This document shows positions 13,515-34,311 of a stretch of DNA of 38,330 bases, piece after piece. Numbering within the stretch: the stretch's first letter is position 1; the number at the start of each line of letters is the position of its first letter. The DNA is taken from the NCBI GenBank assembly GCA_903928175.1, contig CAIYQA010000180.1, positions 1 to 38,330 of the forward strand, read 5' to 3'. Below the pieces are notes generated by a model, which made no database searches, was not told the origin of the DNA, and saw only the letters and a program-made list of their open reading frames with translations. The position numbers and the translations under genes are program-made. This stretch comes from an uncultured Spartobacteria bacterium. GTDB lineage: Bacteria > Verrucomicrobiota > Verrucomicrobiia > Chthoniobacterales > Chthoniobacteraceae.

Positions 13515-15368
13515 ATGTTTTTAACCCCTATGCAAGCTGAGATTGAAAAAGCCGTTCAAGCGGGCAAAATCACCCCCCGTGTCGCCTCCACCCTCGAAAA
13601 GCTCCCCTCCGGGGCTTATTGCTTGCACAAGAGCTGGGGGTTTGGGCGCATCGCGGAAATCAATTTCCTGCTCAACCAGGCCGTCATTGATTTCAAGACC
13701 AAGAAGGGCCACACGATGCAGTTGCAGTACGCCGCGGAATCGTTGACCCCCCTGGCTGAAGACCACATTTTGGTGCGCAAGGTGACCGAGCCCGAAGCCA
13801 TCAAAACCATGGCGAAGCAGAATCCCGTGGGTCTCGTGCGCCTGATTCTTTCCAGCTACGGCGGCAAGGCGACCCAGGATCAGATTGCGCAGGCGCTCTC
13901 CGGGGAGATTTTTACCGAAACGGAATTCAAGCGCTGGTGGGATTCCGCCAAGAAGGCGCTCAAAAAGGACGGCCACATCGCCCTCCCCACCAAAAAGAGC
14001 GACCCGATTGTTCTGCGCGAGAATGCCATCTCCCAGGCGGACGAATTGCTCGCCGCGTTTAATGCCGCCCGCCAAACCAAGGCGCAAATCGCCGCGCTGG
14101 ACCAAATCCTCAAGAGCACCGAGGAATTCAAGGGGAGCGACCAACTCAACGCCGTTGTCGCCAGCGTGGAGGACGCCGCGCAGAAGAGCCGCCGTTTGAA
14201 CACCGCGCAGGCTTTGGAGTTGATCCTCGGCCGGGACGAACTTTGCGCCATCACCGGCATCACCCCCGGCGCAGGCACTATCACCCTCAGCGAACTGCTC
14301 CATGATGAGGAACGCAGGTTGCACGAAATTCTCACCGATGTTCCCGCCGCCAAACAGCGCCGGGTGCTGGCCGCTTTTCCGACTGCTTTTGGCGAAGAGA
14401 AATGGGTGGAGAAGATTCTCGTTCTCATGAGCAAGAGCGGCATCCGCATCGCCTCCGAAATCGGGCGACTGCTCCTGGAACACGGCAAAAAAGCCGAGCT
14501 GCGCCGCGAGCTCGACCGCTGGCTGGGCGATCATACCATTTCCACCGAAGTGCTCACCTGGCTTTGCAAAGAGCGCGAAGGCGCCTTCGCCGAAATGGTG
14601 GATGCCCGCGTGCTGAGCGCCACGCTTTCCGCCTTGGAGCGGGATCAATTCAACGAAGTAAAGCGCGGCGGCAAACTCCACGATCTCTTGCTTGAGGACC
14701 GGGAACTGGTGCCGGACATGCTCGCCGGGGCCGAGCCCGAAATCGTGCGCGACACCATTCGCAAAGTGATGCTTTCGGGGGTGTTTGAAGAGTTGAATAA
14801 GCGGTCCATCCTCGGGCGCATCGTCCGTGTTTATCCCGAGATGGAATCGATGCTCACCGGCGATGCTCCATCAGAAAAACAAGAGGCGCTCATCGTTTCC
14901 TGGGAAAGCCTGGAGAAGCGCAAGAATGAACTCGACGAACTGGTGAACAAAAAGATTCCCGAGAACATCAAAGAGATTTCGCTGGCCCGTTCCTACGGCG
15001 ATTTGCGCGAGAATTTTGAATTCAAAGCCGCCAAGGAAATGCAGCGCGTGCTCTCCCGCCGCAGGGCGGAAATGGAGCGCGACCTGGGTCTGGCGCGGGG
15101 AACCGATTTTGCCAATCCCGACACGCAGGTAGTCTCCATCGGCACCACCGTGACGATCCGCGAGGTGACGGACGGGCGCATTGATGTTTACAGCATCATG
15201 GGAGCCTGGGACAGCGATCCCAATGCGGGGATCATCTCCTACAAAGCCGGGATTGCGCAAGCGCTGCTCGGTCACAAGGTGGGTGAGAAACTGGATGTGC
15301 CCACCGAACACGGCGATCGCGTTGCGGAGATTGTAAAAATCGAGGCCGTTCGCAAGGCCGCGCAGTAG
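13515..15368 (+). CDS. greA: Large GreA-type transcription elongation factor
   Basis: GreA rescues backtracked RNA polymerase by stimulating transcript cleavage. This version is 617 residues, against about 158 for E. coli GreA. The GreA part is C-terminal: a coiled coil from about 450 to 525 whose tip ARSYGDLRENFEF (491-503) keeps the acidic Asp496 and Glu499 needed for cleavage, then the FKBP-like domain with GIISYKAGIAQALLGHKVGE. The 450 residues before it begin with an SH3/tudor-like LHKSWGFGRIAEINFLLNQ (37-55) and continue as helical sequence with HEILTDVPAAKQRRVLAAF. Chlamydial GreA is similarly long. The ATG at 13515 has no Shine-Dalgarno; a second ATG at 13530 is possible. It converges on the ABC-F gene with only six bases between stops. 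Confidence 0.88.
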   Translation: MFLTPMQAEIEKAVQAGKITPRVASTLEKLPSGAYCLHKSWGFGRIAEINFLLNQAVIDFKTKKGHTMQLQYAAESLTPLAEDHILVRKVTEPEAIKTMAKQNPVGLVRLILSSYGGKATQDQIAQALSGEIFTETEFKRWWDSAKKALKKDGHIALPTKKSDPIVLRENAISQADELLAAFNAARQTKAQIAALDQILKSTEEFKGSDQLNAVVASVEDAAQKSRRLNTAQALELILGRDELCAITGITPGAGTITLSELLHDEERRLHEILTDVPAAKQRRVLAAFPTAFGEEKWVEKILVLMSKSGIRIASEIGRLLLEHGKKAELRRELDRWLGDHTISTEVLTWLCKEREGAFAEMVDARVLSATLSALERDQFNEVKRGGKLHDLLLEDRELVPDMLAGAEPEIVRDTIRKVMLSGVFEELNKRSILGRIVRVYPEMESMLTGDAPSEKQEALIVSWESLEKRKNELDELVNKKIPENIKEISLARSYGDLRENFEFKAAKEMQRVLSRRRAEMERDLGLARGTDFANPDTQVVSIGTTVTIREVTDGRIDVYSIMGAWDSDPNAGIISYKAGIAQALLGHKVGEKLDVPTEHGDRVAEIVKIEAVRKAAQ

Positions 15369-22418: not shown

Positions 22419-23858
22419 TCAGTGGGAAATTGTCACGAGGGTGCCGATATCGACTTCCCGGAAGAGGCGCTGCGCGGAACCGAACGGCAGCCGGATGCAA
22501 CCATGCGAATCCGGGTAGCCGGGCAGGACTCCCGCGTGCATTCCGAAATCGCGGCAACTCATCCGCAAAAAATAGGGCATGTAAGCGGGATAAAGCGTGG
22601 AGCGGTGCATCCGGTCTTTGTCGGTGACGACAAACTGCCCGGTGGGGGTCGGAAATCCCGGTCTTCCGGTGGAGACGGGCGTGACGAGCGCGACCTTGTC
22701 ATCCTTGTACAGCACGGCTTGTTGCCGGCCGATTGAGATGTTGATGCGCATCCGCTGATCCTCCGGGCGCGGACTTTTCCCCAGCAAAACCTGGAGCATT
22801 TCGGGCGATGCGTCCCGGCGCGCAGCCAAATCAATGGCGGTCATTTTATAGCGCTTGGTGGAGGCGCTTCGTTTCGCGCCGTATTGCAGCAGGGCTTGGA
22901 CACATTCGATGCGTCCTGTCGCCGCCGCCAGCATCAACGGAGTCATGCCGGATTCCGTCTCCAAATATTCCCGGGTGCTGCGGTCGCCGATCAAGCGCGA
23001 AAAAGATTTGTCCACCGGACTGTTGAGCGGGGTATTCGGGTTGGCTCCGCATTCCAGCAGGAGGGTGAGCAGGGGGTAATTTCCCCAAGCGACGGCATAG
23101 CCGAGGAGCGGTTGCCGCGTGGTTTCCAAGGTGGGCGGGCTTTGGTGATTGACGATCAGCGCGCGAATGAACGGCTTGTTTCCCAGCAGTAAAGCGGTGA
23201 AGAGCGCCTCACGCGCCTGGGGACTCCATTGCGCCGGGTGCTCCGTGCGCAGGATCGGTTCGATCACGTCCAGCTCGCCTGTGTCCAGCGCGTGCAGCAG
23301 CGGTGTCGCGCCGTCACAACAAGGGCAGTCCACCTCCGCTCCATGGGCAATCAACCATTCCACTGTGGGACCCGATTGCGCCAAGATCGCATAATCGAGC
23401 GCCGTGTGTGCGAGCGGATCCCTTTGATTGACATCCGCCCCCTCGCAAATGAGCCGTTCCATTTCCGCCAGATCCGCTTCCTGCGCTGCCCGCATCAAAG
23501 GAGTCACGCCATCTGCATCAGGTGCATTGGGGTCCAGCGGTGGCTCGACGATTTGCACTTGGAGCGACCCTGTTTGCTGCTTTAGCGGAGGGAGCGGCAA
23601 TCGAATCTCGTTGCGATTCGGGACGGGGGTGGGACTGGCTTGCGGCTGGAGCGGCGCGATTTCAGGTTTTGCGGGGAGATTGGGGGAATGCTCAAGGACC
23701 GGAGGCGGTCGCAGGGCGTGCTGCGCCCCGGCTTCGCGCTGCGAGTCGGGCATCTCTAATCCCAGCCAGTGCACCAGCCCATTTGTCAGGAGCGCCAAGA
23801 GGCAACCGATGACACCGCCGACAACCCACGCCGCCAACCTCGTTCCAGATATCCCCAC
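22419..23858 (-). CDS. Ankyrin-repeat / L,D-transpeptidase fusion
   Basis: The 479-residue protein has one N-terminal membrane helix (about 8-30), then a Pro-rich stretch (50-110). Ankyrin repeats follow from about 113 to 360, with DGVTPLMRAAQEADLAEMER, ALDYAILAQ, GMTPLMLAAATGRIECVQAL and MTAIDLAARRDASPEMLQVL. A YkuD catalytic domain closes it (about 371-478), with GMHAGVLPGYPDSHGCIRLP. There His441, Ser451, His452, Gly453, Cys454 and Arg456 match the active site of L,D-transpeptidases, which cross-link peptidoglycan or attach proteins to it. The helix should place the rest in the periplasm. Ankyrin repeats with YkuD are unusual. The gene lies downstream of the J/FGE-like gene on the same strand, but 404 bases of repeat separate them. 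Confidence 0.88.
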   Translation of the reverse strand: MGISGTRLAAWVVGGVIGCLLALLTNGLVHWLGLEMPDSQREAGAQHALRPPPVLEHSPNLPAKPEIAPLQPQASPTPVPNRNEIRLPLPPLKQQTGSLQVQIVEPPLDPNAPDADGVTPLMRAAQEADLAEMERLICEGADVNQRDPLAHTALDYAILAQSGPTVEWLIAHGAEVDCPCCDGATPLLHALDTGELDVIEPILRTEHPAQWSPQAREALFTALLLGNKPFIRALIVNHQSPPTLETTRQPLLGYAVAWGNYPLLTLLLECGANPNTPLNSPVDKSFSRLIGDRSTREYLETESGMTPLMLAAATGRIECVQALLQYGAKRSASTKRYKMTAIDLAARRDASPEMLQVLLGKSPRPEDQRMRINISIGRQQAVLYKDDKVALVTPVSTGRPGFPTPTGQFVVTDKDRMHRSTLYPAYMPYFLRMSCRDFGMHAGVLPGYPDSHGCIRLPFGSAQRLFREVDIGTLVTISH

Positions 23859-32987: not shown

Positions 32988-33017
32988 GGATCTGTATCAG
33001 GTGTTTAGGATAGATCC
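32988..33017 (+). promoter_or_regulatory. Paired RGATCY sites before the restriction gene
   Basis: GGATCT at 32988-32993 and AGATCC at 33012-33017 lie 24 bases apart, directly in front of the restriction gene, whose ATG is five bases further. If the endonuclease-methylase pair recognises RGATCY or a related sequence, these lie where a promoter or the mRNA start would be. More such sites occur within the methylase gene (GGATCC 33669-33674, AGATCT 34073-34078). The regulatory role is inferred. Confidence 0.25.
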
Positions 33018-33022
33018 GACTC

Positions 33023-33613
33023 ATGGCCCTCTCCGATATAGATGCCCGTCTTCATGCAAAATTCGAAATCCATGAGTGGCGGCATGCATCGGCCGTCTTG
33101 CTCAACGATTTTCCAGATGAATGGGCAGATGTCTTTGACGTTCTCTCCAGGTTCGTGCTAAGGAAATCTTGGATTACAGTCGGCGGCGGATCAAAATCAG
33201 ACGTCTCTGGATGGATAGACCGGGCACTCACGGACAAGGGATGGGTGGAAAAGAAATTTGCGACGTCCATTGTCGTGGACGAGATCGCAACGCAGTCGCC
33301 TACCCACAAGGTTGATTGCTTCAAAAACAAAGTTGGTCTCGAAATCGAGTGGAACAACAAAGACCCATTCTTCGATCGTGATTTGAATAACTTTCGCCTG
33401 CTCTTTGAATTGCGAGCCATTGCTGTTGGGATCATCGTCACACGGTGCGATGAACTGCAGAGGGTTTTTGATTCCCTTGGTCGTGGAAAGAGCTACGGTA
33501 ATTCCACCACCCACATGAGCAAACTTTTGCCACGGCTCGAAGGTGGAGCAGGCGGTGGGTGTCCAGTGCTTGTGTTTGGGATCAAAGATGTGCTATTTGA
33601 TTCAGCTACATGA
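33023..33613 (+). CDS. BglII/BstYI-type type II restriction endonuclease
   Basis: The 196-residue protein resembles the BglII/BstYI group of restriction enzymes, which cut inside GATC-containing sites (AGATCT, RGATCY). It shows the GW near residue 73-74 and the core THKVDCFKNKVGLEIEWNN, a D-x8-E-x-E pattern with Asp98, Glu107 and Glu109. BglII and BstYI have Gln at the last position while BamHI has Glu, so a catalytic difference is possible. The recognition site is unproven. The stop codon overlaps the methylase ATG (ATGA). Base composition is lower in G+C than the flanking genes, consistent with horizontal gain. No controller gene is seen. Confidence 0.8.
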   Translation: MALSDIDARLHAKFEIHEWRHASAVLLNDFPDEWADVFDVLSRFVLRKSWITVGGGSKSDVSGWIDRALTDKGWVEKKFATSIVVDEIATQSPTHKVDCFKNKVGLEIEWNNKDPFFDRDLNNFRLLFELRAIAVGIIVTRCDELQRVFDSLGRGKSYGNSTTHMSKLLPRLEGGAGGGCPVLVFGIKDVLFDSAT

Positions 33614-34311
33614 CTGCCTCCGAAGACCTCCTTTCCTCTATTCGTGGTAAATTCGGCACGATCCTCGCGGATCCTCCTTGGAGATTCCAAAACTCCACCG
33701 GTAAGGTAGCTCCAGAACACAAGCGGTTGTCTCGGTATCCGACCATGACGCTAGAGGAAATCAAACTCCTGCCAGTGGACTTGTTTGCCAAAGATTCATC
33801 TCATTTATATCTATGGGTTCCAAACGCTTTGCTGCCAGAGGGTTTGGCCGTCATGGAGGCTTGGGGGTTCAAATATAAATCGAATTTTATCTGGCATAAA
33901 ATCCGAAAAGACGGCGGGCCTGATGGCAGGGGTGTCGGATTTTATTTTAGAAATGTTACCGAGATTATTTTATTTGGAACGCGTGGAAAGAATGCGCGGA
34001 CGCTGGCACCCGGGCGCAGCCAGGTGAACTTTCTTGCTACCCAAAAGCGGGAGCATTCCAGGAAACCGGACGAGATCTTCCCGATCATTGAGGCATGCTC
34101 CTCTGGCCCATTCTTAGAGCTTTTCGCACGTGAAAAACGCAAGGGCTGGACTGTTTGGGGTAATCAGGCTCCAGAAAAGGAAAACACCTTCGCCGGGCCG
34201 ACTCACGGTAAAGCGTATTCCTCCCAAATGACACAGGGGAAATGGGCTCAGGCGACATTTATTGACACGGCACAACCCGCGTCATCCGCGATACTAAAGA
34301 CCGCTTTGTAA
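33610..34311 (+). CDS. MT-A70 family N6-adenine methyltransferase
   Basis: The 233-residue protein is an MT-A70-type methyltransferase. It has FGTILADPPWRFQN with DPPW at 21-24, HLYLWVPNALLPEGLAVMEA, KSNFIWHKIRK, then RKPDEIFPIIEACS (151-164) and FLELFARE (168-175), the order of motifs known from the family. Such enzymes transfer methyl from SAM to the N6 of adenine. With the overlapping restriction gene it forms a type II pair, and so should protect the recognition site. Translation is coupled by the ATGA overlap, with the nuclease first, which is risky unless methylase is made faster. The composition is AT-richer than the chromosome. It ends 79 bases before rpmH. Confidence 0.9.
   Translation: MTASEDLLSSIRGKFGTILADPPWRFQNSTGKVAPEHKRLSRYPTMTLEEIKLLPVDLFAKDSSHLYLWVPNALLPEGLAVMEAWGFKYKSNFIWHKIRKDGGPDGRGVGFYFRNVTEIILFGTRGKNARTLAPGRSQVNFLATQKREHSRKPDEIFPIIEACSSGPFLELFAREKRKGWTVWGNQAPEKENTFAGPTHGKAYSSQMTQGKWAQATFIDTAQPASSAILKTAL

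Follow-up and report, generated by a model that had tools for sequence, protein, structure and literature searches.

The window analyzed here, the whole 38,330-nucleotide stretch of DNA from an uncultured Spartobacteria bacterium, carries a restriction-modification (R-M) pair in which a nuclease gene is followed by, and slightly overlaps, a methylase gene:

33023..33613, + strand: gene for a BglII/BstYI-family nuclease (196 aa), which opens the operon (PF09195, fold, identity to R.Nph3I)
33610..34311, + strand: gene for a DNA methylase of the MT-A70 class (233 aa), predicted to make m6A at RGATCY (PF05063, PADLOC, identity to M.Nph3I)
33610..33613, + strand: ATGA overlap, in which the methylase start and the nuclease stop are shared (sequence)

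Both open reading frames and their shared ATGA at 33610-33613 agree exactly with a preliminary description of this DNA. A gene for a branched-chain amino acid ABC-transporter ATPase (livF type) is the upstream neighbor of the nuclease gene, its stop codon lying 85 bp from the nuclease start, and rpmH, rnpA, a yidD-like ORF and yidC follow 3' of the methylase gene. No gene for a small helix-turn-helix controller (C protein) was found between the livF-type gene and rpmH. These two are the pair's neighbors, in keeping with the earlier claim that the nuclease comes first and that no controller gene accompanies it.

The G+C content of the R-M pair is about 0.48-0.53 versus about 0.57-0.62 in its flanks, a difference that fits acquisition from elsewhere. 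A congeneric genome carries this pair at the corresponding position, with about 89-92% DNA identity and a nuclease protein that is 98% identical. The pair is therefore not an assembly artefact, and it is older than the split of those two species. Twenty contigs sampled from the window's own genome (G000, L175-L194), taken together with the window, have a mean G+C of 0.54 versus 0.60 for the window alone, which may reflect natural variation or mixed binning.

The nuclease matches the Pfam family PF09195 (Endonuc-BglII) over the entire profile (1-163 of 163; E=1.8e-44, 151.8 bits versus a cut-off of 26). Its AlphaFold model (pLDDT 92.8, pTM 0.90) has a PD-(D/E)xK fold with BstYI/BglII/BamHI-like topology; in a Foldseek search, the best PDB match of this model was BstYI (2p0j/1vrr/1sdo; E 4e-8 to 4.5e-7, TM 0.68-0.70), and the second was BamHI. 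A direct sequence search of the PDB with the nuclease alone gave no match, a profile search recovered BstYI weakly, and the fold search recovered it clearly. A search of NCBIfam yielded nothing useful for the nuclease or the methylase. The active site is encoded as follows:

33314..33349, + strand: codons of the catalytic core D98-x8-E107-x-E109 of the nuclease (alignments; BstYI D/E/Q core in the profile alignment)

A BstYI-like enzyme with a D-x8-E-x-E core was thus correctly recognized in the preliminary description. Alignments of 22 and of 56 sequences show no variation at D98 or E109, while residue 107 is E or D. The third catalytic residue is Glu in BamHI and Gln in BglII (PMC4081073), and BstYI has Gln in the profile alignment at the position of E109. 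The replacement of Gln by Glu, to which attention had been drawn earlier, is therefore real with respect to BglII and BstYI, but it is not an oddity: because Glu109 is invariant in the 56 aligned sequences, E-x-E is the norm of this nuclease's branch, and we rejected Glu109 as the mark of an unusual catalytic variant. An invariant lysine, Lys113, aligns with a lysine of BstYI in the profile alignment. We take this place to be that of BstYI K133, where substitution by Asn was among the changes that narrowed BstYI toward AGATCT; by this analogy, a lysine here would favor an RGATCY specificity for the window nuclease.

The partner gene encodes a methylase of the MT-A70 class, as had been claimed, with a match to PF05063 (E=5.2e-28, 98.6 bits versus a cut-off of 23.9) and an assignment by PADLOC to MTase_II, a Type II methylase (E=8e-89). 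Its catalytic motif, D21-P22-P23-W24, is invariant in 8 aligned methylases:

33670..33681, + strand: codons of the DPPW catalytic motif of the methylase (sequence, alignment)

The C-terminal tail of the methylase (about residues 190-233) is unlike the ending of most relatives (WPTY..HS type), and no frameshift is evident in it by eye.

The nearest characterized relative, sought by tblastn against phage records, is Nph3I of the deep-sea Nitratiruptor phage NrS-3. The window nuclease shares 62% identity with R.Nph3I over 192 aa; for the window methylase and M.Nph3I, the value is 68% over 196 aa. R.Nph3I cuts RGATCY, including all RGATCY probes, and M.Nph3I makes RG(6mA)TCY, a mark that blocks R.Nph3I and is present in both the phage and host genomes (PMC10734518). 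As in the window, a PF09195 nuclease gene precedes an MT-A70 methylase gene in tandem with no controller gene between them. However, the Nph3I genes do not overlap, the methylase starting 12 bases past the nuclease stop; they reside in a temperate phage, whereas the window copy is chromosomal, between the livF-type and rpmH genes; and Nph3I has no RGATCY site just upstream of its nuclease, whereas the window has two. The RMC system of A. baumannii A118 (H0N27_10820-30) resembles the window pair in its BglII/BstYI-type nuclease and in adenine methylation at RGATCY, predicted for the window and demonstrated in A118 by SMRT sequencing and mutants, but its methylase is annotated as a DNA adenine methylase and a helix-turn-helix regulator lies between its genes (PMC10287943). 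A related system on an Acinetobacter plasmid (L033) also has a DNA adenine methylase, which by sequence is not of the MT-A70 type.

BglII shares with the window pair a PF09195 nuclease and a GATC-centered site (predicted for the window), but differs in its third catalytic residue (Q), in its N4-cytosine methylase and in its C protein (PMC4882945, PMC4081073). M.BglII makes AGAT4mCT, and the earlier statement that the classical partner of BglII is an N4-cytosine methylase was accurate (PMC4882945). BstYI, the top structural match, has the RGATCY specificity predicted for the window nuclease; on the other hand, it has an E-x-Q core, its sequence is about 15% identical when the structures are aligned, and 6mA at its site does not stop it from cutting (PMC10734518).

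The best prediction for the window pair, and a well-supported one, is m6A at a site containing GATC, with RGATCY as the predicted specificity. The GATC-type m6A site of the preliminary description can be retained as a prediction from Nph3I and A118, although the expected sequence is RGATCY and not AGATCT. The pairing of m6A with RGATCY is already published for close relatives and is not new; what the window pair would add is the extension of a characterized RGATCY/m6A system to another bacterial lineage. Avoidance of RGATCY by the host (observed/expected 0.54 in 149 kb) was considered as evidence of specificity and rejected: the ratio is 0.42 to 1.03 in same-order genomes lacking a PF09195 match, so that RGATCY is also scarce where the nuclease is missing and its scarcity has no diagnostic value.

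It is very unlikely that the locus encodes a system of this kind that reads only AGATCT or GGATCC, or whose specificity around GATC has shifted in another way. Enzymes of the wider fold group do read different sites, namely AGATCT (BglII), RGATCY (BstYI) and GGATCC (BamHI), and the PF09195 branch is diverse. Moreover, M.Nph3I prefers GGATCC in vitro (PMC10734518). Nonetheless, both partners are 62-68% identical to those of Nph3I, and DNA-contact regions such as EIEWNNKDPFFDRDLNNFRLLF and YG.STTHMSKL are nearly identical, so that a change of specificity is improbable. We consider it very unlikely that the locus is inactive, with intact genes but a non-functional nuclease or methylase. The divergent tail of the methylase and the frequent decay of Type II systems would be compatible with such a state, but the frames of both genes are intact, the catalytic residues are present, and the pair has been kept in the congener.

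To place the pair in its family, PF09195 loci were drawn from the phylum, where 26 of 388 genomes have a match above the cut-off, and from plasmids, phages, a GTDB-based genome collection (80 kept of at least 580 relatives) and viral contigs (56). An MT-A70 methylase adjoins the nuclease in 150 of the 158 loci with a nuclease ORF (by the nuclease profile), a fraction that describes the window's branch and not all of PF09195, because sampling began from the window and grew outward, with some loci being near-duplicates. These 150 loci comprise 113 nuclease-first tandem pairs, 34 with genes on opposite strands and 3 with the methylase first. The remaining partners are adenine methylases of a different type (5 loci) or methylases with an SPPY motif (3 loci), and in 6 of 164 loci no methylase was found within the DNA examined around the nuclease. 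An R-end to M-start offset of -3 (the ATGA type) is the commonest among the tandem relatives (26 of about 110). Pairing with an adenine methylase, which had been set against the classical N4-cytosine partner, is therefore the usual state in this branch, and was published for both Nph3I and A118. This corrects the notion of a mainly N4-cytosine partnership for BglII-type nucleases: one large branch is coupled to MT-A70 adenine methylases.

Distant PF09195 nucleases of the same phylum (L015-L018, L020, L022 and L029) are adjoined, mostly upstream, by methylases with SPPY motifs. As judged from such motifs, the single nuclease family PF09195 has at least two types of methylase partner. A nuclease relative in Candidatus Azophilus lithoversatilis (L070, 6001-6549) is 66% identical, and in the 12.5 kb of that locus neither an MT-A70-like methylase (tblastn) nor an N-methylase motif was found; this nuclease may be solitary or may be protected by a methylase encoded elsewhere. 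The methylase beside one Verrucomicrobia nuclease (L077, 6808-7194) matches only residues 2-131 of the query, and is possibly a truncated or frame-broken copy.

A further feature of the locus is the presence of the predicted recognition site just ahead of the nuclease gene:

32988..32993, no strand: GGATCT, RGATCY site 35 bp 5' of the nuclease start codon (sequence; conserved in congener L217/L039)
33012..33017, no strand: AGATCC, RGATCY site 11 bp 5' of the nuclease start codon (sequence; conserved in congener)
33006..33011, + strand: TAGGAT, tentatively a -10 element of a near-leaderless promoter (inspection only)

RGATCY occurs 12 times in the whole 38-kb window, and two of these sites fall in the 85 bp before the nuclease. 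A GGATC[CT] at about -35 is also found in L218, L219, L221 and L337, and an RGATCY at -12 in L219. Such sites occur in each of the three members that make up the window's clade (L001, L218 and L219; three genera of one order), at -35 and -11 in the window, -35 and -12 in L219, and -37 in L218. An RGATCY just 5' of the nuclease start was also noticed in L046, L048, L067, L094 and L100, often near -35 or -10, and in several convergent loci it takes the form TAGGATCC, possibly a -10 box that overlaps RGATCY. A scan with the sigma-70 consensus found no promoter upstream of the operon; between -20 and -6, the pattern TANNNT is present in 22% of R genes versus 11% of control genes.

Sites were counted in MT-A70-paired loci thinned to <85% DNA identity over the first 300 bases of the nuclease gene. 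In a first set of 127 loci, the window not included, there were 18 RGATCY sites in -50..0 versus 17 in the five-times longer -300..-50, as compared with 13 near and 114 far for other GATC contexts (Fisher 5e-7). In 500 dinucleotide shuffles of this set, near sites numbered 6.0 +/- 2.2 and never exceeded 13. A further 22 loci, kept as a held-out set, pointed the same way, with 6 sites near and 7 far (p=0.14 for all, 0.028 for tandem loci), and the combined 149 loci, again without the window, had 24 in each interval (Fisher p=1.6e-7). A site lies within 50 bp of the start in 20 of 149 nuclease genes (13.4%) versus 16 of 582 other genes of the same loci (2.7%; p=1.8e-6). The corresponding counts for two sites within 60 bp are 4 of 149 and 1 of 582. 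By a fewest-changes count on the nuclease tree, about 15 changes are needed to account for the 21 carriers of the trait. The methylase promoters of 28 convergent loci, whose start codons are uncertain, are more weakly enriched (RGATCY to other, 7:7 near and 7:29 far), and we give these counts no weight. Because the statistics were devised after the window had been seen, the start codons were estimated and the relatives are partly non-independent, the enrichment is a good lead rather than a result.

Taken together, the locus is very probably a two-gene Type IIP R-M operon, functionally equivalent to Nph3I, whose upstream sites would probably tune its transcription. In such a system, a dimer of the nuclease would cut unmodified RGATCY, and the MT-A70 methylase would convert the site to RG(6mA)TCY and thereby block the nuclease. 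Both genes would be served by one promoter, nuclease first and with no C protein, and the methylase would be translated through the 4-base overlap. Lying between livF and the nuclease start, the two RGATCY sites suggest promoter control by the system's own methylation; their methylation state, or binding by the system's own enzymes, would probably tune transcription. In its simplest version, the feedback in this nuclease-first tandem operon would act, in either direction, on both genes at once. The operon being nuclease-first, promoter control would affect both genes, and alone it would not delay the nuclease.

Precedents for such control exist. As far as a review describes them, methylation in CfrBI, AhdI and LlaDII acts on the promoter of the methylase gene, and all three have their own recognition site in the promoter region of the operon, where the two sites of the window would also fall by their position (PMC12707154). 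According to the same account, however, CfrBI has divergent genes, and the effect in AhdI and LlaDII is confined to the methylase gene, whereas the window sites precede a nuclease-first tandem operon (PMC12707154). Control of an R-M system through its own methylation was regarded in this 2025 review as logical but "apparently rarely used" (PMC12707154).

Whether the upstream sites have any regulatory role is evenly balanced against their being a coincidence or a by-product of promoter composition. Only about 14% of relatives carry near-start sites, and Nph3I has none; RCTAGY, a palindrome lacking GATC, showed an apparent excess close to starts as well, on small counts; and the held-out set reached significance only among its tandem loci. 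On the contrary, other GATC contexts show no enrichment, the observed near sites exceed every shuffle, and control genes of the same loci carry the site far less often. The repeated changes on the tree and the occurrence of sites in three clade members, each from a different genus, likewise argue against coincidence. A broader reading, to which we give somewhat less than an even chance, is that many lineages of this widespread MT-A70-paired branch independently placed their own RGATCY in the nuclease promoter, with the mark or the binding of the enzymes regulating expression and no controller protein involved; the window, with its two sites, would be a clear example. If true, this would be a repeatedly evolved, controller-free way of setting R-M expression by the product of methylation. 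The enrichment of the system's own site 5' of the nuclease gene is the only part worth pursuing.

Two other proteins of the window were also noticed. One, encoded at 22419-23858 on the - strand, has both ankyrin repeats and a YkuD (L,D-transpeptidase) domain. The other, encoded at 13515-15368 on the + strand, is 617 aa long, much longer than an ordinary GreA, and has GreA/GreB domains only in its last third (about residues 461-610).
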